From the NCBI RefSeq assembly GCF_000964225.1, contig NZ_BAMZ01000005.1:1-64000 (forward strand): a DNA stretch of 64,000 nucleotides, given 5' to 3'. The stretch is from Acetobacter syzygii (GTDB lineage Bacteria > Pseudomonadota > Alphaproteobacteria > Acetobacterales > Acetobacteraceae). This document shows, one piece after another, positions 51,100 to 62,632 of the stretch. Each line of letters opens with the position of its first letter. The stretch's first letter is position 1. The translations under genes and the position numbers were made by a program. The notes under the pieces were generated by a model. The model ran no database searches. It was not told where the DNA came from and worked only from the letters and a program-made list of their open reading frames with translations.

Positions 51100-53418
51100 G
51101 TGTCTTCTGAAGAGATCATAGACCCGACTGTCCAGCATGATGCATCCGTTCGTCGGGTGCTGCTGCACATGGTCCTCCCTTTTGTTCTGATCATTATGAC
51201 GGTGGGCGCTATTGCGTGGGTGGGTATTAATTCATACCGCACCACAAGCGAGGGCGTATCCGTTCTGACCCGCGAGCTTATGGAGGCAACCCAGCAGTAT
51301 ATTGGGCAGGAGGTGGGAGATTACATTGCCCCATCCGCCGCCGGGAATCTGATTGCTGGCGGGATGATCGAACATGCCCCGCCTCTTGTGTCGGACAAGG
51401 TGTTCTATTCCTACGGCAGCGTCATGCTGCAAAAAATTCCCCAGTTGCAGTCTTTTTACCTGGCGGATGATCAGGGGAATTTTACGCTCATTACCCGCTC
51501 GCCCGACAAAGGCGTACAGGACCGTGAGCGTCTTGTTGTTGGGGCGGATGGCAAAAAGTCTTTCCATCATAGTCTTTTCAATGAGGCAGGGCAGAAGCTT
51601 CGGGAGTTTGAGACCCCCGCAGGCGAATACGACCCGCGCACCCGCCCGTGGTATAAAAACACGGAAAAAAAAGACAGCATCCAGTGGACACAGCCTTACC
51701 TGTTTCCGTCCGATAAGCAGTTTGTCATGACCAGCTCGCTCCGCTTTAAGCGTGATGATGGGCACGAAATGGTTTTTGCCACCAACATTTCGTTGAATGA
51801 GCTGAGCGCTTTTCTGGATAAAATAAAGATCGGCAAGACCGGCAGCGCCATGATCGTGGATGCGAACGGTCGGGTTATTGCCGGTCGTAATCTGATGCAA
51901 CATGCCGAGGCGGCTGGGTGGGACCCCAACAAAATGGTGTTGGACCCTAAAACCTATCCGATTTTTGCGTTGGGGTATGACCATTACAGGGTACGGGGCT
52001 TTGGCCCCAAGCATGTGGAATGGGACGGTAAAACCTATATTGCCATGGCATCGGCCCTGCCACGCTATTCGCAGGGCTGGATTTTGCTGATTGTTGCCCC
52101 CGAGAATGATTTTGGCAGCTTTGCCCACCAAAGCAGCCGGCAGAGCCTCCAGTTTGCCGGGATTGTAACGGTGTTTTCCCTCACTCTGGGGGCATTATAC
52201 ATTCGCCAGCTCCGCAGGACGGAGGCAGGTAACCGCAGGCTGGCCGTGCAGCAGTCCCAGCTTGCGCAGGAGAGCGGAGCCCTGCAGCAGGTTGCCATTG
52301 CACCCAACCTGTTTGATCCTTCTGCAGAGCCATTGGCCATTACCGAGCAACTGGCGCAGGTTACAGGTGCGCGCAGGGCCAGCCTGTGGCGGTTCCTCCA
52401 CGATGGTGCCGCCATGGTGTGCGATGATACTTACGACCGTACCCAGAATACCCATTCCGGTGGGTTTGAAATGGGGCGTGAGGAACTGGGCAAGTTCTTT
52501 GATGCCATAGAAGAAGGCACACCTTTTTCCGTCAGTAATGCCGCAACGGATGAGCGGACAACCCGTTTTGAACGGCTGGTCATGCGGGAAGTGGGGACGC
52601 ACGCTCTGGCAGTTTATCCGGTTCATGGCCCCCATGGCGCGTTGGGAATGCTTGCGCTGGAAGAGCCGGTCATGCTGCCGCATCTTCTGTATTTTGTGGA
52701 GCTGATGGCCAGTATTGCTGGCACGCGTTTTGCTGCGCAGAGCGCGGTTGAAGCCCAGCAGACAACATCTGTGGAAAATACGGCACTTGCGCCCGTGCAG
52801 GCCTTTGGTGCGCCAAAATCTGATAATCTGCTCATGCACGCGGAGGAAATGGCCGCAGTTACTGGTGCGAGTATTTACCCCAGTGTGGCTGTGCTTGTGG
52901 TGAGTTTTGCCGACCCGGTGGTGGAAGGCAGCAAGGAGACCGCAACTCTTATTGCGCTGATCAACCAGTTGGCCACACAGGTGCAGACCGTTGCACAGGA
53001 AGAGCAGCTTTTTGCTGTGGAAGTGGCCGGTCATCGCATGATCTGCATGGCGGGCTGCACAACAGAACCTGACCCCACAGCCTTGTTCCGCCTTGCCAAT
53101 GCGGCGCTTAAAATGCGCGAAACGTTTATGGGTGCTCTTGCCGCTGCGGATCTGGAGCCGGTCTTTACCATGGGTATGGATTATGGACCTGCTTTTGGTG
53201 GTGCAGTCGGGCAGTCGCCAACGGTGTTCAACCTGTGGGGGCAAACCGTCTCGCTGGCCGAGCTGATGGCCGAAAGTGCGATTGACCCCGGTACCATTCA
53301 GGTAACGGAGCGCGTGTACGCCAATCTGCGTGACCGGTATCTGTTCCGCAGTCGTGGGGCGTTCTTTGTACCGCATCTGGGGCTTGGACGGGCGTATACT
53401 CTGGCGGCACGCCGATGA
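51100..53418 (+). CDS. Membrane sensor with Cache, GAF and degraded class III cyclase domains
   Basis: A 772-residue protein. TM1 is about residues 22-44, a periplasmic double-Cache-like domain about 45-340 (PRTRPWYKNTEKK, GKTGSAMIVDANGRVIAG), TM2 about 348-366, then a GAF-like domain (about 400-545) and a class III cyclase fold (about 590-770). The cyclase keeps the first metal Asp (D605 in SFADP). The second is His (H645 in VAGHRM, normally GD), and the WGDTVNLASRM motif is WGQTVSLAELM (residues 713-723), losing the catalytic Asn and Arg. It is probably a non-catalytic sensor. The stop overlaps the MlaE start (ATGA), tying it to the MCE operon. Confidence 0.85.
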   Translation: MSSEEIIDPTVQHDASVRRVLLHMVLPFVLIIMTVGAIAWVGINSYRTTSEGVSVLTRELMEATQQYIGQEVGDYIAPSAAGNLIAGGMIEHAPPLVSDKVFYSYGSVMLQKIPQLQSFYLADDQGNFTLITRSPDKGVQDRERLVVGADGKKSFHHSLFNEAGQKLREFETPAGEYDPRTRPWYKNTEKKDSIQWTQPYLFPSDKQFVMTSSLRFKRDDGHEMVFATNISLNELSAFLDKIKIGKTGSAMIVDANGRVIAGRNLMQHAEAAGWDPNKMVLDPKTYPIFALGYDHYRVRGFGPKHVEWDGKTYIAMASALPRYSQGWILLIVAPENDFGSFAHQSSRQSLQFAGIVTVFSLTLGALYIRQLRRTEAGNRRLAVQQSQLAQESGALQQVAIAPNLFDPSAEPLAITEQLAQVTGARRASLWRFLHDGAAMVCDDTYDRTQNTHSGGFEMGREELGKFFDAIEEGTPFSVSNAATDERTTRFERLVMREVGTHALAVYPVHGPHGALGMLALEEPVMLPHLLYFVELMASIAGTRFAAQSAVEAQQTTSVENTALAPVQAFGAPKSDNLLMHAEEMAAVTGASIYPSVAVLVVSFADPVVEGSKETATLIALINQLATQVQTVAQEEQLFAVEVAGHRMICMAGCTTEPDPTALFRLANAALKMRETFMGALAAADLEPVFTMGMDYGPAFGGAVGQSPTVFNLWGQTVSLAELMAESAIDPGTIQVTERVYANLRDRYLFRSRGAFFVPHLGLGRAYTLAARR

Positions 53419-54314
53419 GTGAGAGTGATCCCGGCCCCGCCCAGACCCCTCCGCCACCAACCGATACAACGCGCGACCCCGTGCTGGCCGGGCAGACCGA
53501 GCGAGGGACGGCGGTGGCACCTGCCCAGTGGGCGGTAGGCAAGCTGGGCTGGCTTGGACGGTTAACACGCAGGCAGGCGCGTTTTCTGCTGATCATGCTT
53601 GGTGCTTCGTGGGGGGTTATTTTCGAGAGTTTCCGCGCTCACTCATGGCGCAGGACGGTCCGGTACGAATTTATCAGCACCATGAACAACATCATTCGTG
53701 GCGGGCTGATTGCGACCATGTTTGCGGGGGTCCTAACCGGGGTTGCTGCGGTTTCTCAGGTTATTTACTGGCTGGGGCTGACCGGCCTTGCCACCATGAC
53801 AGGCTCCATCCTGATCAATGTGGTCGTGCGCGAAATTGCGCCTATTCTGGTGGGAATGCTCCTGCTGGGGCGTAACGGCATGTTGTCCACCACGGAACTG
53901 GGGCTTTTGAGCATAGGGGGGGAAATCCGCTCCATGCAGGCTGTGGGCATAGACCCGTTCCTGCTGCTGGTTCTGCCCCGTACACTGGCGTTTACCGTAG
54001 CCGGGTTTACGCTGGGCATTCTGTTTTCGTTCGCATCGCTGGTCACAGGGTATGTTATGAGCCGCCTGTCCGGGGTTATTAACAACCCTGTCTGGGTTTT
54101 TCTGGATGATGTGGCAACGGCCATGTCGGGCACGGATTACATTATTATCCCGCTCAAATTCATTACTGTCGGGTTTGTTGTGGGGCTTGGTGGCTGCATT
54201 ACCGGACTGACCGCTACAAACGAGGATTCACTCCGCACATTACTGCCCCGTGGCTTTTCGCGCGGGATGCTGATTGTGATGGTGGTGAGCGTGCTGTTCA
54301 GTCTGGATATATAA
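53415..54314 (+). CDS. MlaE family ABC permease (MCE system)
   Basis: A 299-residue inner-membrane permease of the MlaE/YrbE family, with a 50-residue proline-rich cytosolic N-terminal extension. Family landmarks are FISTMNNIIRGGL, the VVREIAPILVGMLLLGRNGMLSTTELG segment (in place of the usual GRVGSAIAAELG) and SMQAVGIDPFLLLVLPRTLAF. There are about five helices. MlaE dimers form the membrane core of lipid transporters that pair with MlaF ATPases and a hexamer of MlaD. It is coupled to the sensor upstream and is 1 bp from the ABC subunit gene downstream. Confidence 0.88.
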   Translation: MSESDPGPAQTPPPPTDTTRDPVLAGQTERGTAVAPAQWAVGKLGWLGRLTRRQARFLLIMLGASWGVIFESFRAHSWRRTVRYEFISTMNNIIRGGLIATMFAGVLTGVAAVSQVIYWLGLTGLATMTGSILINVVVREIAPILVGMLLLGRNGMLSTTELGLLSIGGEIRSMQAVGIDPFLLLVLPRTLAFTVAGFTLGILFSFASLVTGYVMSRLSGVINNPVWVFLDDVATAMSGTDYIIIPLKFITVGFVVGLGGCITGLTATNEDSLRTLLPRGFSRGMLIVMVVSVLFSLDI

Positions 54315-54315
54315 G

Positions 54316-55017
54316 ATGGAAGTCTATGCCGCAGGCCCACTGCTTGAACTGAACAAGGCCGTTCCATCGTTTGATGAAAGTGGTCTGCCACCCGTGCCAT
54401 TCAGCATGAAAGTGATGCCCGGCGACTGCATGGTGGTGGAAGCGCGCGATGTGGGGCACGCAACCATGTTTGCAGATCTGTGCAGTGGCCTTATTCCACT
54501 CGATGATGGATCGGTCCGGTTTATGGGGCTGGACTGGACCGAATTGGGTGACCGGGAGTTGAATGCGCTGCGTGGCCGCATTGGTCGCGTAACCCATAGG
54601 GCAAGCTGGCCGGAGTTTGTGCCTGTTCACCTTGCCATTGTGTTGCAGCAGTTACACCATACAACCCGCCCGATTGATGATCTGGTGCAGGATGCCGCCA
54701 ATCTGGCGGAAAGGTTTGGCCTGCCTGGCCTGCCAACAGAAAACCCCAGTTTTTTGCCGGAGGATGATCTGCTGCGCGCTAGTTGCGCACGGGCATTTCT
54801 GGGCCAACCCCATTTGTTGCTGCTGGAAGACCCGCTTGAGGGTGGCCCGGCAGAGTTGAGCAATTCTTTTCTGGCTGCAATAACCGAAGCACGCGATAGA
54901 GGTGCCGGGGTTATCTGGCTGGTAAGGAATAACGCAGTCTGGCAGGAATATCGGCAGGGTATTACGGCAACCTGGCGGCTTGCAGATGATGGTCTTGTAG
55001 CAGTACGGATGGGATAA
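54316..55017 (+). CDS. ABC-type subunit (MlaF-like) with all catalytic motifs degraded
   Basis: A 233-residue protein in the MlaF position with an ABC ATPase outline. Walker A, normally GPSGSGKST, is EARDVGHAT (42-50), with Lys replaced by His48. The LSGGQ signature is LPEDD (147-151). Walker B LLLLDEP is LLLLEDP (167-173), with the acidic pair swapped. The switch histidine region is WLVRNNAVW, with no His. The framework between motifs is kept (GLIPLDDGSVRFMGLDW, LNALRGRIGRVTH), so this is not random decay. It cannot be expected to hydrolyse ATP. It may be a structural subunit of the MCE transporter, or pair with an ATPase encoded elsewhere. Confidence 0.82.
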   Translation: MEVYAAGPLLELNKAVPSFDESGLPPVPFSMKVMPGDCMVVEARDVGHATMFADLCSGLIPLDDGSVRFMGLDWTELGDRELNALRGRIGRVTHRASWPEFVPVHLAIVLQQLHHTTRPIDDLVQDAANLAERFGLPGLPTENPSFLPEDDLLRASCARAFLGQPHLLLLEDPLEGGPAELSNSFLAAITEARDRGAGVIWLVRNNAVWQEYRQGITATWRLADDGLVAVRMG

Positions 55018-55967
55018 TGTTCCAACTCCGCATACGACAGAAAGTAAAACCATTGATTTCTCTGCGTTATGCAGATGAATGGGTGGGTTTTCTCGTGCTT
55101 CTGAGCATACTCATATTCGGGGGCGCGGTTATCGAGGCTGGCGTGCTGCGTGACTGGCTGACTCCTCCAGCACGGCTACGGGTTGTGTTGCCGGCCTCTG
55201 GTGTGGGCGGGTTAACCGTTGGGGGCGATGTGCAGCTTATGGGGGCCCATGCGGGCACTATTCGCAGTATCAAGCTCAATCCATCGGGCAACATGTACGC
55301 CATGGTCGATCTGGACCCACAGGCAAAACCTTTTATCCGGCGCGATAGTACGGCTCTTATTCGCAAACAGCTTATTGTGACCGGTGCATCCTATCTGGAT
55401 CTCAGTCGCGGGCATGGCGATCCAATGGACTGGAGCTACGCTGTTGTTACGGCAACGCCTGCGCCTAACCCTGCGGACCAGATTACCGCAACCCTGAACA
55501 GTATTCAGGCCGAAATTATGCCTGCACTGGCGAGTGCACGGCATATGATGGCGCAGTTGGATGGCACCATAACCGATATGCACGCCGGTAAAGGCACAAT
55601 CGGGCAGCTTATGACCAACGACCAGCTTATCCGCCAGTCCGAAGCCACGATTGCGTCCTTGGATGCGGTGATCGAGCGGCTTAAGCCGATTGAAAAGCAG
55701 GTTTCAGGGATCATGAACAAAACGGACGCCACTATGGGCAACCTGAATGCGGCAACCAGAGATGTTAAGAACGCCACGCCACACCTGCCAGCCATTGCCA
55801 GCAATGTGGAGGCCAGCACATCCGACCTGCCAGCCCTGTTGGCGCAGGCCCAGACCACTCTTTATGGTCTGCAACAACTGACCGATCAGTTGCGTGGCAT
55901 GTGGCTGCTGGGGGGGCATAAGGTTACGCACCATAAACGTCTGGCACCACAGCAGGTGCGGCCATGA
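55017..55967 (+). CDS. MCE-domain protein, MlaD-like
   Basis: A 316-residue inner-membrane-anchored periplasmic protein. One TM helix (about 24-45) is followed by one MCE domain (about 50-130: VGGLTVGGDVQLMGAHAGTIRSIKL, VDLDPQAKPFIRRDSTALIRKQLIVTGASYLDL). A long helical, heptad-rich tail (about 150-295) ends in a short basic segment. MlaD-type proteins form hexameric rings with a hydrophobic lipid channel. The start overlaps the preceding stop (TAATG) and the stop overlaps the lipoprotein ATG. Confidence 0.9.
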   Translation: MFQLRIRQKVKPLISLRYADEWVGFLVLLSILIFGGAVIEAGVLRDWLTPPARLRVVLPASGVGGLTVGGDVQLMGAHAGTIRSIKLNPSGNMYAMVDLDPQAKPFIRRDSTALIRKQLIVTGASYLDLSRGHGDPMDWSYAVVTATPAPNPADQITATLNSIQAEIMPALASARHMMAQLDGTITDMHAGKGTIGQLMTNDQLIRQSEATIASLDAVIERLKPIEKQVSGIMNKTDATMGNLNAATRDVKNATPHLPAIASNVEASTSDLPALLAQAQTTLYGLQQLTDQLRGMWLLGGHKVTHHKRLAPQQVRP

Positions 55968-56902
55968 GACGGCTCACACATCTTCTGGTTCTGGCAACGC
56001 CGCTGCTGCTTGGCGGGTGTGGTGGAGCTGACCAGACCAAACCGACAGCGCAGGATGATGCCGCGTGGGATCAGGCTATGGCGGCCGGGCGGAATTCTTT
56101 TGAGCTTGGGCGTTATACGGTAGCTGTATCCCAGTACCGTAAGGCGGCCAACCTTGCCCTTGTGCGTGATGATGGAGATGCCGTGGCAGAGGCGGGGTAT
56201 GACCTTGCGGTATCGCAACTGGCAGCCAATACGCCAGCGGAGGCATTGCAAACAACGCAGGCAACCCGGCAGGCCGTGGCACTGCGTGGCGGGCAGGATC
56301 AGTTCTCGCTTGATCTGGTGGAAGCCGCAAGCCACTATCGGTTAGGGCAGTATGCGCAGGCTCTGCCGCTGGCCCAACATGCCATGCAAGCGCCAGACCC
56401 CGCCGTGGGTGCACGGGCCGCTCTTGTTCTGGGCCTTGCTGCGGATGCGCAGGGTGATCGTAGCGCCTTGCAACTGGCTGCATCTTACCTGAACGGCCTT
56501 AAGCCGCCTCTTACCCCCGCGCAGCAGGCGGATAAGGCGGAAATTCAGGCACGGCTTATCCGCCAGTCCAGTCCGGCACAGGCAGAGCAGTTGGCTGAGG
56601 CGGCAGCAGGCCTGCGCCAGAGCGAAGGCGCATACCATGACATGACGCGTGCTTTGGCCCTTGCCGCCCAGATTGCTGGCAGCCAGGGTGACCAGGCCCG
56701 TGCTCATGCACTTTGGGCACGGGCTGCCCAGAGTGCAGCTGCTCAGTCTGGCAAGCTCAACAGGATGGATGCGCAAACGCTGGCTCATGGTAATCTGACC
56801 AAAGGCAATGCCGCTCCGCCTGAGGATGATGCGCAGATATGGGCGCGCAACGCAGGCAACATTGTGCTGCGTCCATTCGACCAGAACGACACCAGCAACT
56901 AA
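55964..56902 (+). CDS. TPR-type lipoprotein of the MCE operon
   Basis: A 312-residue lipoprotein: signal peptide with lipobox LLGGC (cysteine near residue 19), then GGADQTK and a series of helical TPR-like repeats (WDQAMAAGRNSFELGRYTVAVSQYRKA, YDLAVSQLAANTPAEALQTTQA, ALPLAQHAMQAPDPAVGARAALVLG). MCE operons often end with a lipoprotein (for example MlaA-like or PqiC-like). This one resembles neither, so it may be a new outer-membrane partner of the MlaD-like ring. It is the last gene of the five-gene unit. Confidence 0.82.
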   Translation: MRRLTHLLVLATPLLLGGCGGADQTKPTAQDDAAWDQAMAAGRNSFELGRYTVAVSQYRKAANLALVRDDGDAVAEAGYDLAVSQLAANTPAEALQTTQATRQAVALRGGQDQFSLDLVEAASHYRLGQYAQALPLAQHAMQAPDPAVGARAALVLGLAADAQGDRSALQLAASYLNGLKPPLTPAQQADKAEIQARLIRQSSPAQAEQLAEAAAGLRQSEGAYHDMTRALALAAQIAGSQGDQARAHALWARAAQSAAAQSGKLNRMDAQTLAHGNLTKGNAAPPEDDAQIWARNAGNIVLRPFDQNDTSN

Positions 56903-57142
56903 ACCTCTCCCGCTGTAGTGGGCCGGGTGCATGGGGTGGTGGATCAAGTTGCGGTGTATTGCTGGCCGGGTTGCCTGCGTGTTTTTGCAGGCGTTTCCTG
57001 CAAAACGGGCACCAGCTTAAAATAACCGCAGGTCAAGCAGGTCTTCCATGCAGAATCCATGGATCACAGGGACCATTTGCTGTGTAACACCGCAACCTAA
57101 GCGCAGGTCCATGTGCATGGCTGTGCGCACGGAGCGGTGATT

Positions 57143-58150
57143 ATGAAAAGACTTTTCCACCATTACAGAAAACGTAACCGTCAGGGAGAAGCGGAGCGCC
57201 ATACCAAACTGGAGGATGTGGCGCCAGAACCCAGTGGCAAAGGGAATGGGCGTTTCCACCTGAGTACCAAGGAGGCGGTCAGGCGTTTTCGTGCCCATGC
57301 GCTGGTGGAAGAAAAAAACCACCGCGATGTTGTGCGTGTCGGTTTGAAAGATAGCGTGTGGGCGGACCTTTACCACCATGCGCTTACGGCAAGCTGGCCC
57401 GCTTTTGCGGCCATTGCCGTTGTTTCATACATCGTGATCAATCTTGTGTTTGCCCTGCTGTATCTGGTTGCACCAGACCAGATTACGGGCCTGTCGCACG
57501 GCAAGCTGTTATCCCTGTTCTTTTTTAGCGTTCAAACACTCTCCACCGTGGGTTACGGCACCATGAGCCCGATTGGCGCGTACGCCAACGCGGTTGTTTC
57601 GGTTGAAGTGTTTGTAGGCATGATGCTCACAGCCCTTGCAACTGGTGTGGTTTTTGCTCGGTTTGCGCGCCCCCGGGCGCGGCTTATGTTCAGCAATATG
57701 GCTGTTATCAGTAACGAAGGGGGCATTCCCGCTTTGTGCATCCGCATTGCCAACCTGCGGATGAGTGTGATTTTATCGGTTGATATTGAAGTCGCCTTGT
57801 CCCGTCTGGTTATGAGCGACAATGGGCACTTGGTCCGTAAATTTGACCAGCTTCTGCTTATGCAATCCCATGTGCCTGTGCTGCGGTTTGCTTTTGTCAT
57901 GGCTCATGTCATTACCCCTGACAGCCCTTTGCACGGCAAAACGGTTGCGGAACTGGAAAAAGAAGAAGCCGAGATTATTGTCACCGTTACAGGCACGGAC
58001 GAGGCGCTGGGCCAGACTGTATTTGCCAGAACGGCATACCGGTTTGATCGGGTGCAGCATAACCATCGGTTTGTGGATATTGTGCTTTCCCGCCCGGATG
58101 GACGCATTACAGTGGATTACACCCGCTTCCATGATGTGGAGGCGCATTAG
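57143..58150 (+). CDS. Inward-rectifier potassium channel (KirBac family)
   Basis: A 335-residue channel from ATG 57143 (MKRLFHHY). The N-terminal slide-helix region (DVVRVGLKDSVWADLYHHALTAS, partly quoted) precedes TM1 (WPAFAAIAVVSYIVINLVFAL), the pore helix with filter TVGYG (about residues 135-139), and TM2. A beta-rich cytosolic Kir domain follows (about 190-335: FSNMAVISNEGGIPALCIRIANLRM). KirBac channels pass K+ and respond to phospholipid or ligand. It ends 10 bp from the converging FUSC gene. Confidence 0.92.
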   Translation: MKRLFHHYRKRNRQGEAERHTKLEDVAPEPSGKGNGRFHLSTKEAVRRFRAHALVEEKNHRDVVRVGLKDSVWADLYHHALTASWPAFAAIAVVSYIVINLVFALLYLVAPDQITGLSHGKLLSLFFFSVQTLSTVGYGTMSPIGAYANAVVSVEVFVGMMLTALATGVVFARFARPRARLMFSNMAVISNEGGIPALCIRIANLRMSVILSVDIEVALSRLVMSDNGHLVRKFDQLLLMQSHVPVLRFAFVMAHVITPDSPLHGKTVAELEKEEAEIIVTVTGTDEALGQTVFARTAYRFDRVQHNHRFVDIVLSRPDGRITVDYTRFHDVEAH

Positions 58151-58160
58151 TATTCCCGCC

Positions 58161-60365
58161 TTAAATGGGCTTGAACCGCCTTGTTGTGTCCATAAAAACA
58201 GCATTGGCTGCAAATTCTGCCTGCATGACCTCCAATGCGCCAATAGCCCGACCAAAGTCGATCTGGGCGGACAGGTTGGTCATGTGTACCGTGGCTGGCA
58301 GCAGGTTTGCCAAGGCCTGCCGGGCTGCCTGTGCCGGGGCTAGAGTGTAGCCCTGCATGGTGTGGATACTATGGAGCAGGCTTTGCAAAGCCGCCCGCTG
58401 TGGTTCTGGCAGCAGGTTATGGAACAGCACATTATGCAGCCGTAGAATGAGAATGCCGGTCATCATGCATCCAATCGCACCGCTCAGGTAAGCTTCTGTG
58501 AGCTTGTTCGGGGCGGCGTCCATGTGCCGAATAATCTGGGCTAGACGTTCGCCAGAGCGGGCTATCCATTCTGCTGAGCTGAGGGATAATGTGCCAGAAG
58601 CCAGATGTTGCAGATCTCCCACCATTTTGCGGCGGAGTCTCCAGCGCTCATTGGCTGGACTAAATGGCAGCACAAGCTGAAAAACAAGCACACCCAGACC
58701 AATCCCCAGCACAACAGCGGGGGTGGTATTAAGCCAGTTGAGTTCATCCAGCCTGTGATGGTTGGCAGGGCCAACCATAAACGGCAGAAAATTGTTGTAA
58801 GCAGCGGCTGTTGCAGCCAATGCTCCCGGCGCGCGTAAAGCCAGCCCCCCGACCAGCATGGGTATGAACAGGGAGGCCAGAAGAGTCTCAATACTGGCCT
58901 GATCAGGTAGTATCCAGAACACCAGAAAGAAGGAAACAACCGCAGCCCAGACTGCTCCACGCAAAAAACCACTGGCTGCAACAACCGGATTTTCAAATGA
59001 TGAAAAACGGGTGCTTGTCACGGCTACAAACATGGCCAGGGTGGAGCCTTCGGGCCATGCGGTAACCTCCCACAGTAATCCTCCCATACAAAGGGCGGCT
59101 GCTGCGCGTAAGCCGTTATTGAACGCCAAGGTCACATCTTTTTCAGGGTGGCGGTCAAAGCGGAAGTGGTCTTTTGGGGTGTCTGCCTGTGCGGCAATAA
59201 TATGTGCCAGAACCCGGTCCAGTTCGACCAGAAGCTTGGCTATGGCAGCTTGCAGTATTCTGCTTTCCAGTAGGGCATGGCTGGCGGGAGAAGGGCCGGG
59301 TGCGCGTTTTTGCAAAATCTGGAACTGGGCCAGCATGTCCATGCCTTGTTGTTTGCTCAGAGTCATATGGCTGCGCAACATGCTGCGGGCCTGCTGCGCC
59401 GTGGTGATTGAGGGAGTATTGGCAAACTGCTCTGCCAGTTGGGCTATTAGGTCCAGTATACTATTGAGCTGTGGAGCAAACCCTTCAGGCAGGGGAGACG
59501 TTGCCTGCATATGAATGTTCAGCGCAATGCCACGGGCCAGAAAGCCGGAAATAGCGGCTAGTCCAGCACGGGCATGGTCGCCTGCATGGGAATATGGCCC
59601 CATTTCTATTTCGCTGAATTCGGTCTGGTCGGCCATGCTGGGAATACTGCTGAGCAGTGCGCGGGAGCGGAGCAGACCATCGGCTTGCCCGCGCAACAGA
59701 TCCCCGACACCAAGACATGCCGCGTGGAGCGCACCAAACAGATGAGCACGGATTTGCGCACGGGCCACAGTTTCCAGCTTGGGCGCAAATAAGGCGGCCA
59801 GAAAACTTTCGCAGACAATACCAAGCGTTATGTATGTGGCGCGGGAAAGGGCGATCATAAAAATATTGTCAGGCTGGTTGGCCCCGCTCAGCACAATAAT
59901 GGTGGTGGTAAAAGCCACCAGAACCAGTGCATAGGAACGGAAATTCCGCAAAAATGTTGCAAAGGCGCAGCACCCTCCGGTCCATATGGCCAGAATGGGA
60001 AAAAGTACCCATGGTTCCTGCGGAAGTGCGCACAGTAAGGCAACACCGGCACAGGCACCAAGGCACGTACCAATCAACCGCCATTTGGCTTTGGACAGGC
60101 TTTGCCCGCGCGAATTCTGCGCCACAATCCATGTGGTCATGGCAGCCCATTGTGGACTGTCCATTTCCATCCATAGTGCCAGCGTAAGCGCTAAAAAAGC
60201 TGCGCAGGTTGTACGGAGCGCAAACCCAAGATCCGTTGCTTTGGGGGCCAGCAACCATCTGAGCGGCATTTTGGAGAACGGGTCTGGTTCTCCCGCTTTG
60301 GGTGCAAGTCGCAGGACTGTGGATTGGAAGCGTGAAAATATAGAGGAAACAGACACCGTAGCCAC
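58161..60365 (-). CDS. FUSC family membrane protein (AaeB-like exporter), downstream copy
   Basis: A 734-residue protein with two blocks of hydrophobic helices. Block one is about 40-195, with the FUSC signature ALRTTCAAFLALTLALWMEMDSPQWAAMTTW (shown in part) and a SKAKWRLIGTCLGA motif. Block two is about 430-590. A soluble helical region lies between them and another at the C-terminus. This matches aromatic-acid/fusaric-acid efflux proteins. It is a diverged paralogue of the gene at 60449, which lies 83 bp upstream on the same strand. GTG 60365 is used. Substrate unknown. Confidence 0.87.
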   Translation of the reverse strand: MATVSVSSIFSRFQSTVLRLAPKAGEPDPFSKMPLRWLLAPKATDLGFALRTTCAAFLALTLALWMEMDSPQWAAMTTWIVAQNSRGQSLSKAKWRLIGTCLGACAGVALLCALPQEPWVLFPILAIWTGGCCAFATFLRNFRSYALVLVAFTTTIIVLSGANQPDNIFMIALSRATYITLGIVCESFLAALFAPKLETVARAQIRAHLFGALHAACLGVGDLLRGQADGLLRSRALLSSIPSMADQTEFSEIEMGPYSHAGDHARAGLAAISGFLARGIALNIHMQATSPLPEGFAPQLNSILDLIAQLAEQFANTPSITTAQQARSMLRSHMTLSKQQGMDMLAQFQILQKRAPGPSPASHALLESRILQAAIAKLLVELDRVLAHIIAAQADTPKDHFRFDRHPEKDVTLAFNNGLRAAAALCMGGLLWEVTAWPEGSTLAMFVAVTSTRFSSFENPVVAASGFLRGAVWAAVVSFFLVFWILPDQASIETLLASLFIPMLVGGLALRAPGALAATAAAYNNFLPFMVGPANHHRLDELNWLNTTPAVVLGIGLGVLVFQLVLPFSPANERWRLRRKMVGDLQHLASGTLSLSSAEWIARSGERLAQIIRHMDAAPNKLTEAYLSGAIGCMMTGILILRLHNVLFHNLLPEPQRAALQSLLHSIHTMQGYTLAPAQAARQALANLLPATVHMTNLSAQIDFGRAIGALEVMQAEFAANAVFMDTTRRFKPI

Positions 60366-60448
60366 AAGCCCTCTTGAAGAGGGTCTTGTTATAACACTAC
60401 CTGTCAGGTTGGTAAAAAAGAAAGTGTTGTATGGGTGTAAAGGGTTGC

Positions 60449-62632
60449 TCAGACGGCGCGGTAAGGGCGGCTTGCATCCAAAAATACGGCATTGGCATCC
60501 AGTTCGTGGGAGACCACAATCAGGTACGCAATGGCACGGGTGAGCTCAATACGGGTGGAAATATTGGGCTCTGCTGCTTCCATCCGGCGTAATGCAGTGG
60601 TCGCCACGCGGGCAGCGTGGGCAGTATGGCCATATTTGCCTGTAAACTGGCTCATCCGCTTCATAACAATTTCTATGGCTCTGCGTGCCGGTGGGGGAAT
60701 TTGGTTGCGGTGGAGGAGTGCGCGTAGACGAATAATATTGAGCCCAATGGTCATGGCCGCCAAGGTGCCTTGCAGGCAGCCTTCAATAGTGGGCGAAGGT
60801 GTTGGGCCAGCATGGCGGATCAGTCTGGCAAAACGGTCGATATTCCGGCCAATCCAGTCCCGTGTCATGGGGGTGGGTTCGGCTGATGCCAGCGTGCGCA
60901 GGTCGCGCAGCAGGGTGCGGCGCATACGCCAGCGTTCCGCAGCACTGTTGAACGGCAGGACCGCACGGAAAATAAGCACTGCAAAAAACACACCAAGCAG
61001 AATGGCCCAGGTGGAGTTAAACCACGTTACCTCGTCCACGCGACCCTGATTGAGCGGGTGAACAAAGTTGGGCAGCAATAGGGTATAGGCAGCAGAATGG
61101 AGCGCTGTGCCAGCATTCCGCGCAGCCAGCCCGCCCGCAAACATGGGGATGGCCAGTGTTGCTACCAGCATTTCGTAGTTGGCTTGTGTGGGCAGTACAA
61201 AAAAGACCAGAAAAAACGCAACCAGAGCGGCCCATATGCCGCCGATCATAAACTGGGTTGTTGCCACAACCGGGTTCTCACGGGTGGCAAACAGCCCGCA
61301 CACAATGGCAACAAAGGTTATAAACCCAAGCCCCGTGGGCCAGGCCGTGCACTCCCACACCAGCCCGGCTGCGCTCAGTGCTACAGCCGCGCGTACACCA
61401 TTATAGGCGGCCTCGCGCTTGTCCACGTGGGACTGGAGGCGGAAATGGAAGTGATCACCCCGAATAAAGTGCTGGCTGGCATCGTATTCACGGATGGCCT
61501 GCTCCAGTTCGCCAAGCAGTTCATCCATGGCGTTGTGCAGGATTCGTCCATCCAGCAGGGCGGAAATCTGGCTGTTTTCGTCCTCTACGGCAAAAGCGGA
61601 GCCGATTTCGTGCGTTAAGGCATCCACAATCTGCTGGTGGCATTCTGCCCGGAGCAGTTGCAGGTCGCGCAGAATGCCACGCACGCCGGTTTCGGTATTC
61701 AGGCGGTTTGGCAGCCCGCTCAGGAATGTACTGACCTTGGAGGCTGTCTCGCGGAATATGGGCTGGTCGGTCTGCACGTATTGCAGGCGGACGGTCATCC
61801 CCAATCCGCGCGACAGCAGAACGGACACCGCAGCCAGAGCCGCACGGGCATGGTCGCCCTCATGCCCATGGGGGCCCATTTCCGCCTCGGAAAACTCAAT
61901 CTGGTCATTAATGGACAGGATCGGACCGAACATGGCGCGCGAGCGGATCAGGGCTTCATCATCCCCAGCCAGCAAGCTTGCTACCGCTTCGGACACGTTG
62001 CTCAGGGCCGTGCGGAGCTTGTCGCGGATGTTGCGGCGCGCCGTTTCAGACAGGTTGTGGGCAAACAGGCCCGCTACCGTGCTTTCGCACACAATACCCA
62101 ACACAATGTAGGTTGCGCGCGACATGGCGGTCATGAACACGTTTTCGGGGTGAGGAATGGCCCCAATGGCAATAATGGCAGTCGTATAGCCTGCCAGCAC
62201 AAGCGCGTAGGAGCGGAAGTTGCGGACCAGTGTGGCCAGCGCGCAGCATAACCCCAGCCAGATTGATAGCGCAGGGAAGAACAGCCACGCAGTCTGGTTA
62301 AAGGCCGAAATAAGGGTGATGGACATAACCACCCCAATACCCGTGCCCACCAGACGCCACCGCGCCTTGGACATGCTCTCCCCGCGGGAGCCCTGGGCCA
62401 CAATCCATACGGTCATGGCTGCCCATTGCGGATCGTCCAGTTCCATCCACAGGGCAATGACCAGTGCAATCAGGGCGGCGGCTGTTGTGCGCAGCGCAAA
62501 TCCGATTGCCGAGGGGGATGGCGCAAGCAGCCAGCTGAATGGCAGTTTGCGCTGTACACCGGGCGGGCCTAACGGGCGGAAGGTGCGCAGGCGACCGATC
62601 CTGTCAAGCAGGGGAAAAGAAAGACTGGGCAC
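60449..62632 (-). CDS. FUSC family membrane protein (AaeB-like exporter), upstream copy
   Basis: A 727-residue paralogue of the downstream FUSC protein with the same plan. The first helix block shows ALRTTAAALIALVIALWMELDDPQWAAMTVW (shown in part), KARWRLVGTGIGV and NFRSYALVLAGYTTAIIA; the second block is about 430-580. The shared D-P/S-Q-W-A-A-M-T-x-W-I-V-A-Q core shows the duplication. GTG 62632 is the longest start. No membrane-fusion partner gene (aaeA-like) is next to the pair. Confidence 0.87.
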   Translation of the reverse strand: MPSLSFPLLDRIGRLRTFRPLGPPGVQRKLPFSWLLAPSPSAIGFALRTTAAALIALVIALWMELDDPQWAAMTVWIVAQGSRGESMSKARWRLVGTGIGVVMSITLISAFNQTAWLFFPALSIWLGLCCALATLVRNFRSYALVLAGYTTAIIAIGAIPHPENVFMTAMSRATYIVLGIVCESTVAGLFAHNLSETARRNIRDKLRTALSNVSEAVASLLAGDDEALIRSRAMFGPILSINDQIEFSEAEMGPHGHEGDHARAALAAVSVLLSRGLGMTVRLQYVQTDQPIFRETASKVSTFLSGLPNRLNTETGVRGILRDLQLLRAECHQQIVDALTHEIGSAFAVEDENSQISALLDGRILHNAMDELLGELEQAIREYDASQHFIRGDHFHFRLQSHVDKREAAYNGVRAAVALSAAGLVWECTAWPTGLGFITFVAIVCGLFATRENPVVATTQFMIGGIWAALVAFFLVFFVLPTQANYEMLVATLAIPMFAGGLAARNAGTALHSAAYTLLLPNFVHPLNQGRVDEVTWFNSTWAILLGVFFAVLIFRAVLPFNSAAERWRMRRTLLRDLRTLASAEPTPMTRDWIGRNIDRFARLIRHAGPTPSPTIEGCLQGTLAAMTIGLNIIRLRALLHRNQIPPPARRAIEIVMKRMSQFTGKYGHTAHAARVATTALRRMEAAEPNISTRIELTRAIAYLIVVSHELDANAVFLDASRPYRAV

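Follow-up and report, generated by a model that had tools for sequence, protein, structure and literature searches.

The stretch of Acetobacter syzygii DNA analyzed here (64,000 nucleotides of contig NZ_BAMZ01000005.1; the window) carries a block of five plus-strand genes at 51100 to 56902, cyc, mlaE, abc, mce and tpr, which encode a sensor with a class III cyclase domain, an MlaE-family permease, an ATP-binding cassette (ABC) subunit, an MCE protein and a tetratricopeptide repeat (TPR) lipoprotein. The junctions between the open reading frames are −4, +1, −1 and −4 bp, and these coordinates and junctions are as claimed in an earlier reading made without database searches (the sequence-only reading). 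Judged by the loss of motifs in all members examined, the ABC subunit is a pseudo-ATPase, and the residues substituted at its active site imply that the cyclase domain of the sensor is a pseudo-cyclase. The genes of the block are under purifying selection. We see about an even chance that the block is a conserved MCE lipid conduit, derived from an ABC transporter of the MlaEFD/Mpc type, in which a pseudo-ATPase is combined with a pseudo-cyclase sensor and which works without ATP of its own under control by protein contact.

Catalytic motifs and selection

The same genome encodes two other ABC subunits adjacent to MlaE, both intact, and these served as the standard for the window ABC protein. 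Compared with them, it has no Walker A motif, Q-loop Gln, LSGGQ signature, D-loop Asp or H-loop His, and its Walker B motif is a vestige in which DE has become ED (LLLLED, against LLLLDE). The sequence-only reading had every catalytic motif lost, which is correct for Walker A, Q-loop, LSGGQ, D-loop and H-loop and slightly too strong because Walker B survives as a vestige. The match to the Pfam model ABC_tran was below threshold (13.8 bits; cut-off, 25). From an AlphaFold2 model with a mean predicted local distance difference test score (pLDDT) of 93.5, the subunit is predicted to have the ABC ATPase fold. A strand at residues 38 to 43 is followed in this model by a helix at residues 46 to 56, with hardly any loop between them where Walker A used to be, and therefore little of the phosphate-binding loop remains.

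The motif count covered 84 rows, comprising the window, 59 loci from the family Acetobacteraceae, 19 named Acetobacter/Gluconacetobacter loci and 5 loci from another order, with some duplicates (the contigs of at least two named loci, L134 and L135, appear identical to those of G174 and G042). The Walker A Lys was absent from all 84 (59/59 family, 19/19 named and 5/5 other-order loci, plus the window), and the pattern GK[ST] was found neither in the window protein nor in any of the 59 family rows. No row kept more than three of the nine motif residues. At the position of the Walker B Asp, 55 of the 59 family loci have Glu, and the two signature Gly residues remain in 3/84 and 6/84 rows. Remnants scattered in this manner among relatives would fit an old loss of the motifs and not a recent decay.

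Pfam matched the sensor to dCache_1, GAF and Guanylate_cyc (PF00211; E = 5.8e-16), and the homology of its C-terminal domain to cyclases was found both by this match and by alignment to solved class III cyclases. In that alignment, the six canonical catalytic positions, which we take to be two metal-binding Asp residues together with substrate and transition-state residues, are occupied in the window by S602, A639, H645, N711, S718 and L722. All six differ from the canonical residues, in agreement with the degraded cyclase of the sequence-only reading, with the one reservation that Asp605 is possibly a shifted first Asp. The stretch around W713-G714 is retained. At most one of the six residues is kept in any of 83 cyclase rows (one row is largely unaligned). 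The first metal Asp (position 602) is absent from 58/58 family, 5/5 other-order and 18/19 named rows, the last having one gap (L125, a fragment), and the second is kept only in L086, L087 and L145, with Asn in 2 rows and Arg in 5 of the 83.

Each window gene was compared with its counterpart at seven of the 19 named loci, all seven from Acetobacter, to estimate the ratio of nonsynonymous to synonymous substitution rates (dN/dS); silent sites approach saturation in the more distant pairs. The values were 0.055 to 0.135 for abc, 0.020 to 0.069 for mce, 0.070 to 0.184 for mlaE, 0.062 to 0.213 for cyc and 0.103 to 0.156 for tpr (six pairs, one not being computable). Those for abc are close to those of the neighboring ppx gene (0.035 to 0.137).

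Site variability was tested after removal of near-identical rows, which left 50 of 59 ABC rows and 49 of 58 cyclase rows. The ABC catalytic columns were more variable than the protein as a whole (2.27 bits against a mean of 1.85 bits), Glu171 at the place of the Walker B Asp being the exception among the former sites (0.42 bits). W74, R86, G90, P137, G138, P140, D151, R159 and A160 were invariant in the 45-row ABC alignment; by what is generally known of ABC domains, the conserved stretches may well face the permease.

Distribution, companion genes and layout

A search of 200 Acetobacteraceae genomes (its own included) with the ABC protein gave matches in 77 at E ≤ 1e-8, which we divided by eye into 61 strong ones (its own and 60 others; at least 93.8 bits) and 16 that were weak only (36 to 42 bits). 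The sequence-only reading had pointed to this family as the place to look for the block, and the gene is indeed present in 60 of the 199 other genomes sampled, in every case beside homologues of cyc, mlaE and mce. Matches to cyc, mlaE, abc and mce lay on one strand in 60/60 fetched loci, and tpr was found in 59/60, the one exception being L076, cut off by the end of its contig. Among named species, Acetobacter okinawensis, lambici, fabarum and lovaniensis have the closest relatives of the ABC gene (91 to 94%). The alignments held parts of this set (A1 and A2, 44 of the 60 relatives; A3, 15; A4, 43).

The sensor profile matched 119 of 200 genomes sampled from the order (its own included) at E ≤ 1e-80, the matches listed all being Acetobacteraceae. 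The ABC gene is present in all 49 sensor carriers common to the two samples and in none of the 16 listed noncarriers that they share. The class sample gave matches in 5 of 289 genomes (its own included), one of which, G339, lies outside the family; within the order of G339, 5 of 17 genomes (G339 included) carry the sensor, all five with all five genes. Beyond family members and G339, only partial sensor matches were found in a phylum sample of 398 genomes at E ≤ 1e-25. A permease tree (FastTree, one gene, rooted on the two intact paralogues, eight rows left out) placed L086 to L092 at the base and nested the five other-order loci (L101 and L145 to L148) within the family. Because of this nesting, the whole operon probably reached the other alphaproteobacterial order by horizontal transfer, and ancestral presence in that order was rejected. 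Intermediates with intact motors were considered and rejected as well; a permease profile at E ≤ 1e-32 matched 5 of 278 class genomes (its own included), namely, four family members and G339.

A few loci are damaged. L040 and L057 have fragmented block genes, and in L093 (G126) the genes are in pieces in a 2.0-Mb genome while G046, of the same genus, is intact; L093 is possibly a natural loss of the whole block. L093 was dropped from the ABC, cyclase and permease counts, L057 from the cyclase and permease counts and L040 from the permease count. In the small genome G220 (C5:25698-28030), the sensor was matched as two pieces, the second interrupted by a stop, possibly a case of sensor decay.

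A conserved partner gene outside the block was considered and rejected: the commonest flanking cluster occurs at 23/60 loci and the next at 21/60, and ppk or ppx lies beside the block in only 2/60 of the stretches fetched. Flanking clusters thus accompany at most 23/60 loci, and the block itself is therefore the unit.

The permease belongs to the MlaE family (PF02405, 117 bits; cut-off, 22.5) and matches solved MlaE; Pfam found the MlaE domain alone in it, with 86 amino acids ahead of that domain and no STAS domain. In the stretch at amino acids 165 to 174, presumably the coupling helix, an acidic residue is replaced by Gly in 51/57 block permeases and an Asp by Arg or Lys in 49/57 (3 of 60 rows dropped), and both positions are acidic in the two intact permeases of the same genome. 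The MCE protein, in which Pfam found MlaD, was modeled with a helix at its N terminus, an MCE domain and helices that total about 145 residues (mean pLDDT of 79.3, with lower values in the tail). Its top Foldseek matches were Mce1 and MlaD chains, and the best solved sequence match of its family was PDB 13hr_I, an Mce/MlaD protein of 312 amino acids, in a match that includes the helical tail. The TPR protein has a conserved lipobox Cys, the aligned column holding Cys in 58/59 relatives and a gap in one; a loose lipobox pattern matches 42/59. As the sequence-only reading had it, MlaB and MlaC are missing, a Pfam scan of the five proteins having found neither STAS (MlaB) nor MlaC. The features are collected in Table 1. 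The dCache_1 domain is probably a ligand sensor, with a presumed location in the periplasm.

Table 1. Features of the five-gene block (positions in the window; aa, amino acids)
Feature	Position	Strand	Details
Sensor with predicted pseudo-cyclase (cyc)	51100..53418	+	772 aa, GTG start; dCache, GAF, class III cyclase fold; full-length relatives found
dCache_1 domain	51427..52092	+	aa 110-331; Pfam E = 9.9e-15
GAF domain	52339..52722	+	aa 414-541; Pfam E = 2.8e-8
Predicted pseudo-cyclase domain	52867..53415	+	about aa 590-772; positions 602, 639, 645, 711, 718 and 722 all changed
MlaE-family permease (mlaE)	53415..54314	+	299 aa; 4-bp overlap with sensor gene; PF02405 E = 1.2e-33
Stretch at place of MlaE coupling helix	53907..53936	+	aa 165-174, LSIGGEIRSM; acidic to Gly, Asp to Arg or Lys
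ABC-fold predicted pseudo-ATPase subunit (abc)	54316..55017	+	233 aa; 1-bp gap after mlaE; MlaF-like by position and best Foldseek match
Former Walker A	54442..54465	+	aa 43-50, ARDVGHAT against GGSGSGKS; Lys to Ala
Former signature to Walker B	54754..54831	+	aa 147-172; Asp151 invariant; Walker B Asp is Glu171
MCE (MlaD-type) protein (mce)	55017..55967	+	316 aa; 1-bp overlap with abc; N-terminal helix, MCE domain, long helical tail
Helical tail of MCE protein	55470..55910	+	aa 152-298; needle-like by comparison with Mce1 and MpcD; block-mean pLDDT about 58-84
TPR lipoprotein (tpr)	55964..56902	+	312 aa; 4-bp overlap with mce; weak Pfam TPR; lipobox Cys19

A scan for promoters and terminators found sites no commoner than in shuffled sequences. 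The block is preceded by ppk and ppx and followed by genes for an inward-rectifier-type potassium channel and FUSC, neighbors to which we attach no functional meaning. The channel gene is directly 3′ of the block (57113 to 58150; IRK_C, E = 2.1e-23). Next come two long genes that look alike (734 and 727 amino acids), side by side on the minus strand (58161 to 62632). The first is FUSC/AaeB-like by Pfam, and it is no more than a guess that the pair is a tandem duplication.

The genome has three MlaE genes, that of the block included. The second, intact mla operon for which the sequence-only reading had suggested looking was found, as two MlaE-MlaF pairs with intact motifs, one on C86 and one in a cluster on C87. 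The C87 cluster (L095; G000 C87, 4637-8200) has an Mpc-like layout of extended MlaE, intact MlaF, a 318-amino-acid MCE protein and a PF03886 lipoprotein. In the 190 amino acids ahead of the MlaE domain of its permease, Pfam found no STAS domain at E ≤ 1e-3. Further MCE matches lie on C76, C81 and C87, the last having three in one PqiB-like frame of 600 amino acids, and there are two MlaC matches and one MlaA match elsewhere in the genome. Because the genome has two intact MlaE-MlaF pairs, MlaA, MlaC and a PqiB-like protein, the block is an extra system, an addition and not a replacement.

Proposed mechanism and alternatives

Both active sites are gone in the examined carriers, yet the genes remain under selection, so the retained parts are most simply explained as being kept for binding, and for the same reason the block probably works without ATP of its own. 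In the mechanism that we propose, a dimer of MlaE, a hexamer of the MCE protein and the TPR lipoprotein would form a path from the inner to the outer membrane, with the ABC-fold subunit still docked beneath MlaE as a structural latch. The dCache domain would sense a periplasmic ligand or the state of the lipids, and the GAF and dead cyclase domains would relay this signal by protein contact, opening or closing the path. Lipid would flow along its own gradient, or its movement would be powered by a source other than local ATP hydrolysis. Complex formation, spanning of the periplasm, gating, ATP independence and the substrate are points that we infer. A bolder version, which we offer only tentatively, is that a whole lineage of ABC lipid transporters has dispensed with ATP for good, with its nucleotide-binding subunit turned into an inert latch and a dead-cyclase sensor gating a passive lipid bridge by contact.

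The ABC subunit likely descends from MlaF, judging from its partner gene and from Foldseek, in which the best PDB match by E value was E. coli MlaF (6xgz; template modeling [TM] score, 0.79; 20% identity). Several results weigh against this descent or against the lipid conduit as a whole. MacB, FtsE and YbbA chains followed close behind MlaF in Foldseek, and FtsE and MacB chains reached TM scores of up to 0.83. In the NCBIfam scan, the window protein scored higher with FtsE than with MlaF (36.2 and 14.7 bits), and the ABC family profile scored higher with MacB than with MlaF (71 and 58.8 bits); descent from MlaF is not proven, because sequence ranks FtsE and MacB above it. Some catalytic residues persist among the 84 ABC rows, namely, the Q-loop Gln in 20, the signature Ser in 61, the Walker B Asp in 2, the Walker B Glu in 10 and the H-loop His in 2. 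Asp605, three residues past position 602 in an FAD triplet, is present in 54/83 cyclase rows and, if the register is shifted, could represent the first metal Asp; counted as such, it raises the maximum kept to two of six, and the other five window positions are still lost. The excess variability of the ABC catalytic columns reached only P = 0.059, and for the cyclase the test gave no significant excess when all six sites were used (P = 0.31), owing to the nearly fixed Asn711 (P = 0.09 without it). The model of the MCE tail is of moderate confidence. Finally, gene content leaves room for a borrowed ATPase, because 60/60 carriers have at least two MlaE matches (read by eye; the best in G126 reached only E = 1.6e-30).

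Such borrowing is the main alternative among transport models. The permease would be powered by the intact MlaF of the C86 pair or the C87 cluster, either by itself or paired with the pseudo-subunit in a heterodimer. The genome does contain two MlaF genes whose motifs are intact, and ATPases are shared in other MCE systems (MceG); both points favor such borrowing. The altered coupling helix, with Gly and Arg or Lys where acidic residues stood, would seem ill suited to such a motor, and the pseudo-subunit is kept under selection in every examined carrier, which a replaced motor would not need; we therefore rate a borrowed ATPase as quite unlikely. Unlikely too, if somewhat easier to entertain, is that the block is not a transporter at all, its MlaE, pseudo-ABC and MCE proteins acting as a sensor that reports the state of the membrane or as a scaffold that holds an envelope assembly. 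Both enzymes look dead, the first gene encodes a dCache sensor, and that sensor is present at 60/60 loci, all points in favor of such a role; conservation of the MCE domain, the MlaE fold and the lipobox Cys argues against it. To our knowledge, the described MCE systems bind or move lipids, which also counts against a pure sensor or scaffold. In the accessible parts of two reports, lipids are bound or moved by Mpc, PqiB and YebT (PMC12436622, PMC5561183).

Cryptic catalysis, at a rewired site in either the ABC subunit or the cyclase, might be suspected from the strong conservation of Glu171, Asp151 and Asn711 at or beside former sites and from the frequency of Asp605. With the Walker A loop nearly gone from the ABC model and most former ABC catalytic columns varying freely, it appears very improbable. 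The broken genes of L093 and the fragments in L040 and L057 are what recent decay would look like, and the sequence-only reading had allowed that close relatives with intact motifs might reveal a decay confined to one strain. No such relatives appeared: the Walker A Lys occurs in 0/83 other ABC sequences and is missing in 59 of the 60 other family genomes, those in which the region exists, and the cyclases keep at most one of six residues when counted strictly. Recent decay or pseudogenes in one strain thus has a negligible chance of being correct, and for the window both decay and sequencing error were rejected by conservation and by dN/dS far below 1 in the relatives tested.

The proposed lipid conduit without its own ATP bears on the means and the direction of phospholipid transport across the periplasm and on the question of why only some MCE systems depend on ATP. 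An MlaE complex with a dead-looking motor in every examined member amounts to a natural experiment: if the block still moves lipids, MlaE-MCE conduits need no local ATP hydrolysis. In the bolder version of the proposal, two former enzymes would now serve only as protein-binding parts. The block is also a case of a predicted pseudo-ATPase and pseudo-cyclase kept together in one operon across many genera, including acetic acid bacteria open to culture and alteration in the laboratory.

Comparison with described systems

The block resembles the Mla system of E. coli (MlaFEDB) in its MlaE family permease, its MCE domain and an ABC subunit with MlaF as the best Foldseek match. The ATPase motifs of E. 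coli MlaF are intact. In contrast, the block has no intact Walker A and B, and the MlaB and MlaC that belong to the E. coli system are missing from it.

We found no description of the block in the literature searched, subscription papers and preprints lying outside the search. To that extent, the proposal in the sequence-only reading of a candidate undescribed system stands, but that reading did not name a close described relative, Brucella Mpc (PMC12436622), the closest that we found. In the part of that report available, Mpc (MpcEFDA) is a chimeric Mla-Pqi system reported across Hyphomicrobiales, and its parts copurify: an MlaE with an extra STAS domain, an MlaF, a long MCE protein and a PqiC-like lipoprotein (PMC12436622). 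Like Mpc as described there, the block combines MlaE, an MlaF-like subunit, a long-tailed MCE protein (331 amino acids in Mpc and 316 in the block) and a lipoprotein, without MlaC in the set. Four differences separate them in the same text (PMC12436622). The ABC transporter is called well conserved there, whereas the ABC subunit of the block is a predicted pseudo-ATPase; MpcE has an extra STAS domain, whereas none was found in the block permease; MpcA is PqiC-like, whereas the block has a TPR lipoprotein without PF03886 by Pfam; and Mpc is a four-gene operon with no sensor mentioned in that text, to which the block adds one. Among the features of Mpc, the block thus has the long helical MCE tail and lacks the intact F subunit, the STAS extension and the PqiC-like lipoprotein.

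MlaEFD has been proposed as an ancestral core, in a report whose accessible text identifies MlaF by synteny and calls its annotation uncertain (PMC10665443). The block is like the minimal MlaEFD core of Veillonella in having E, F and a long D without MlaA or MlaC. It differs in that no catalytically dead F is reported in that text and in that the Veillonella D protein has a C-terminal β-barrel, whereas none is seen in the model of the block MCE protein (PMC10665443). With PqiAB and YebST/LetAB, as far as the available portion of their description goes, the block shares the condition of an MCE system without an ABC ATPase of its own; those systems have a PqiA-type membrane partner, multi-MCE proteins and no ABC-fold subunit, whereas the block has MlaE (PMC5561183).

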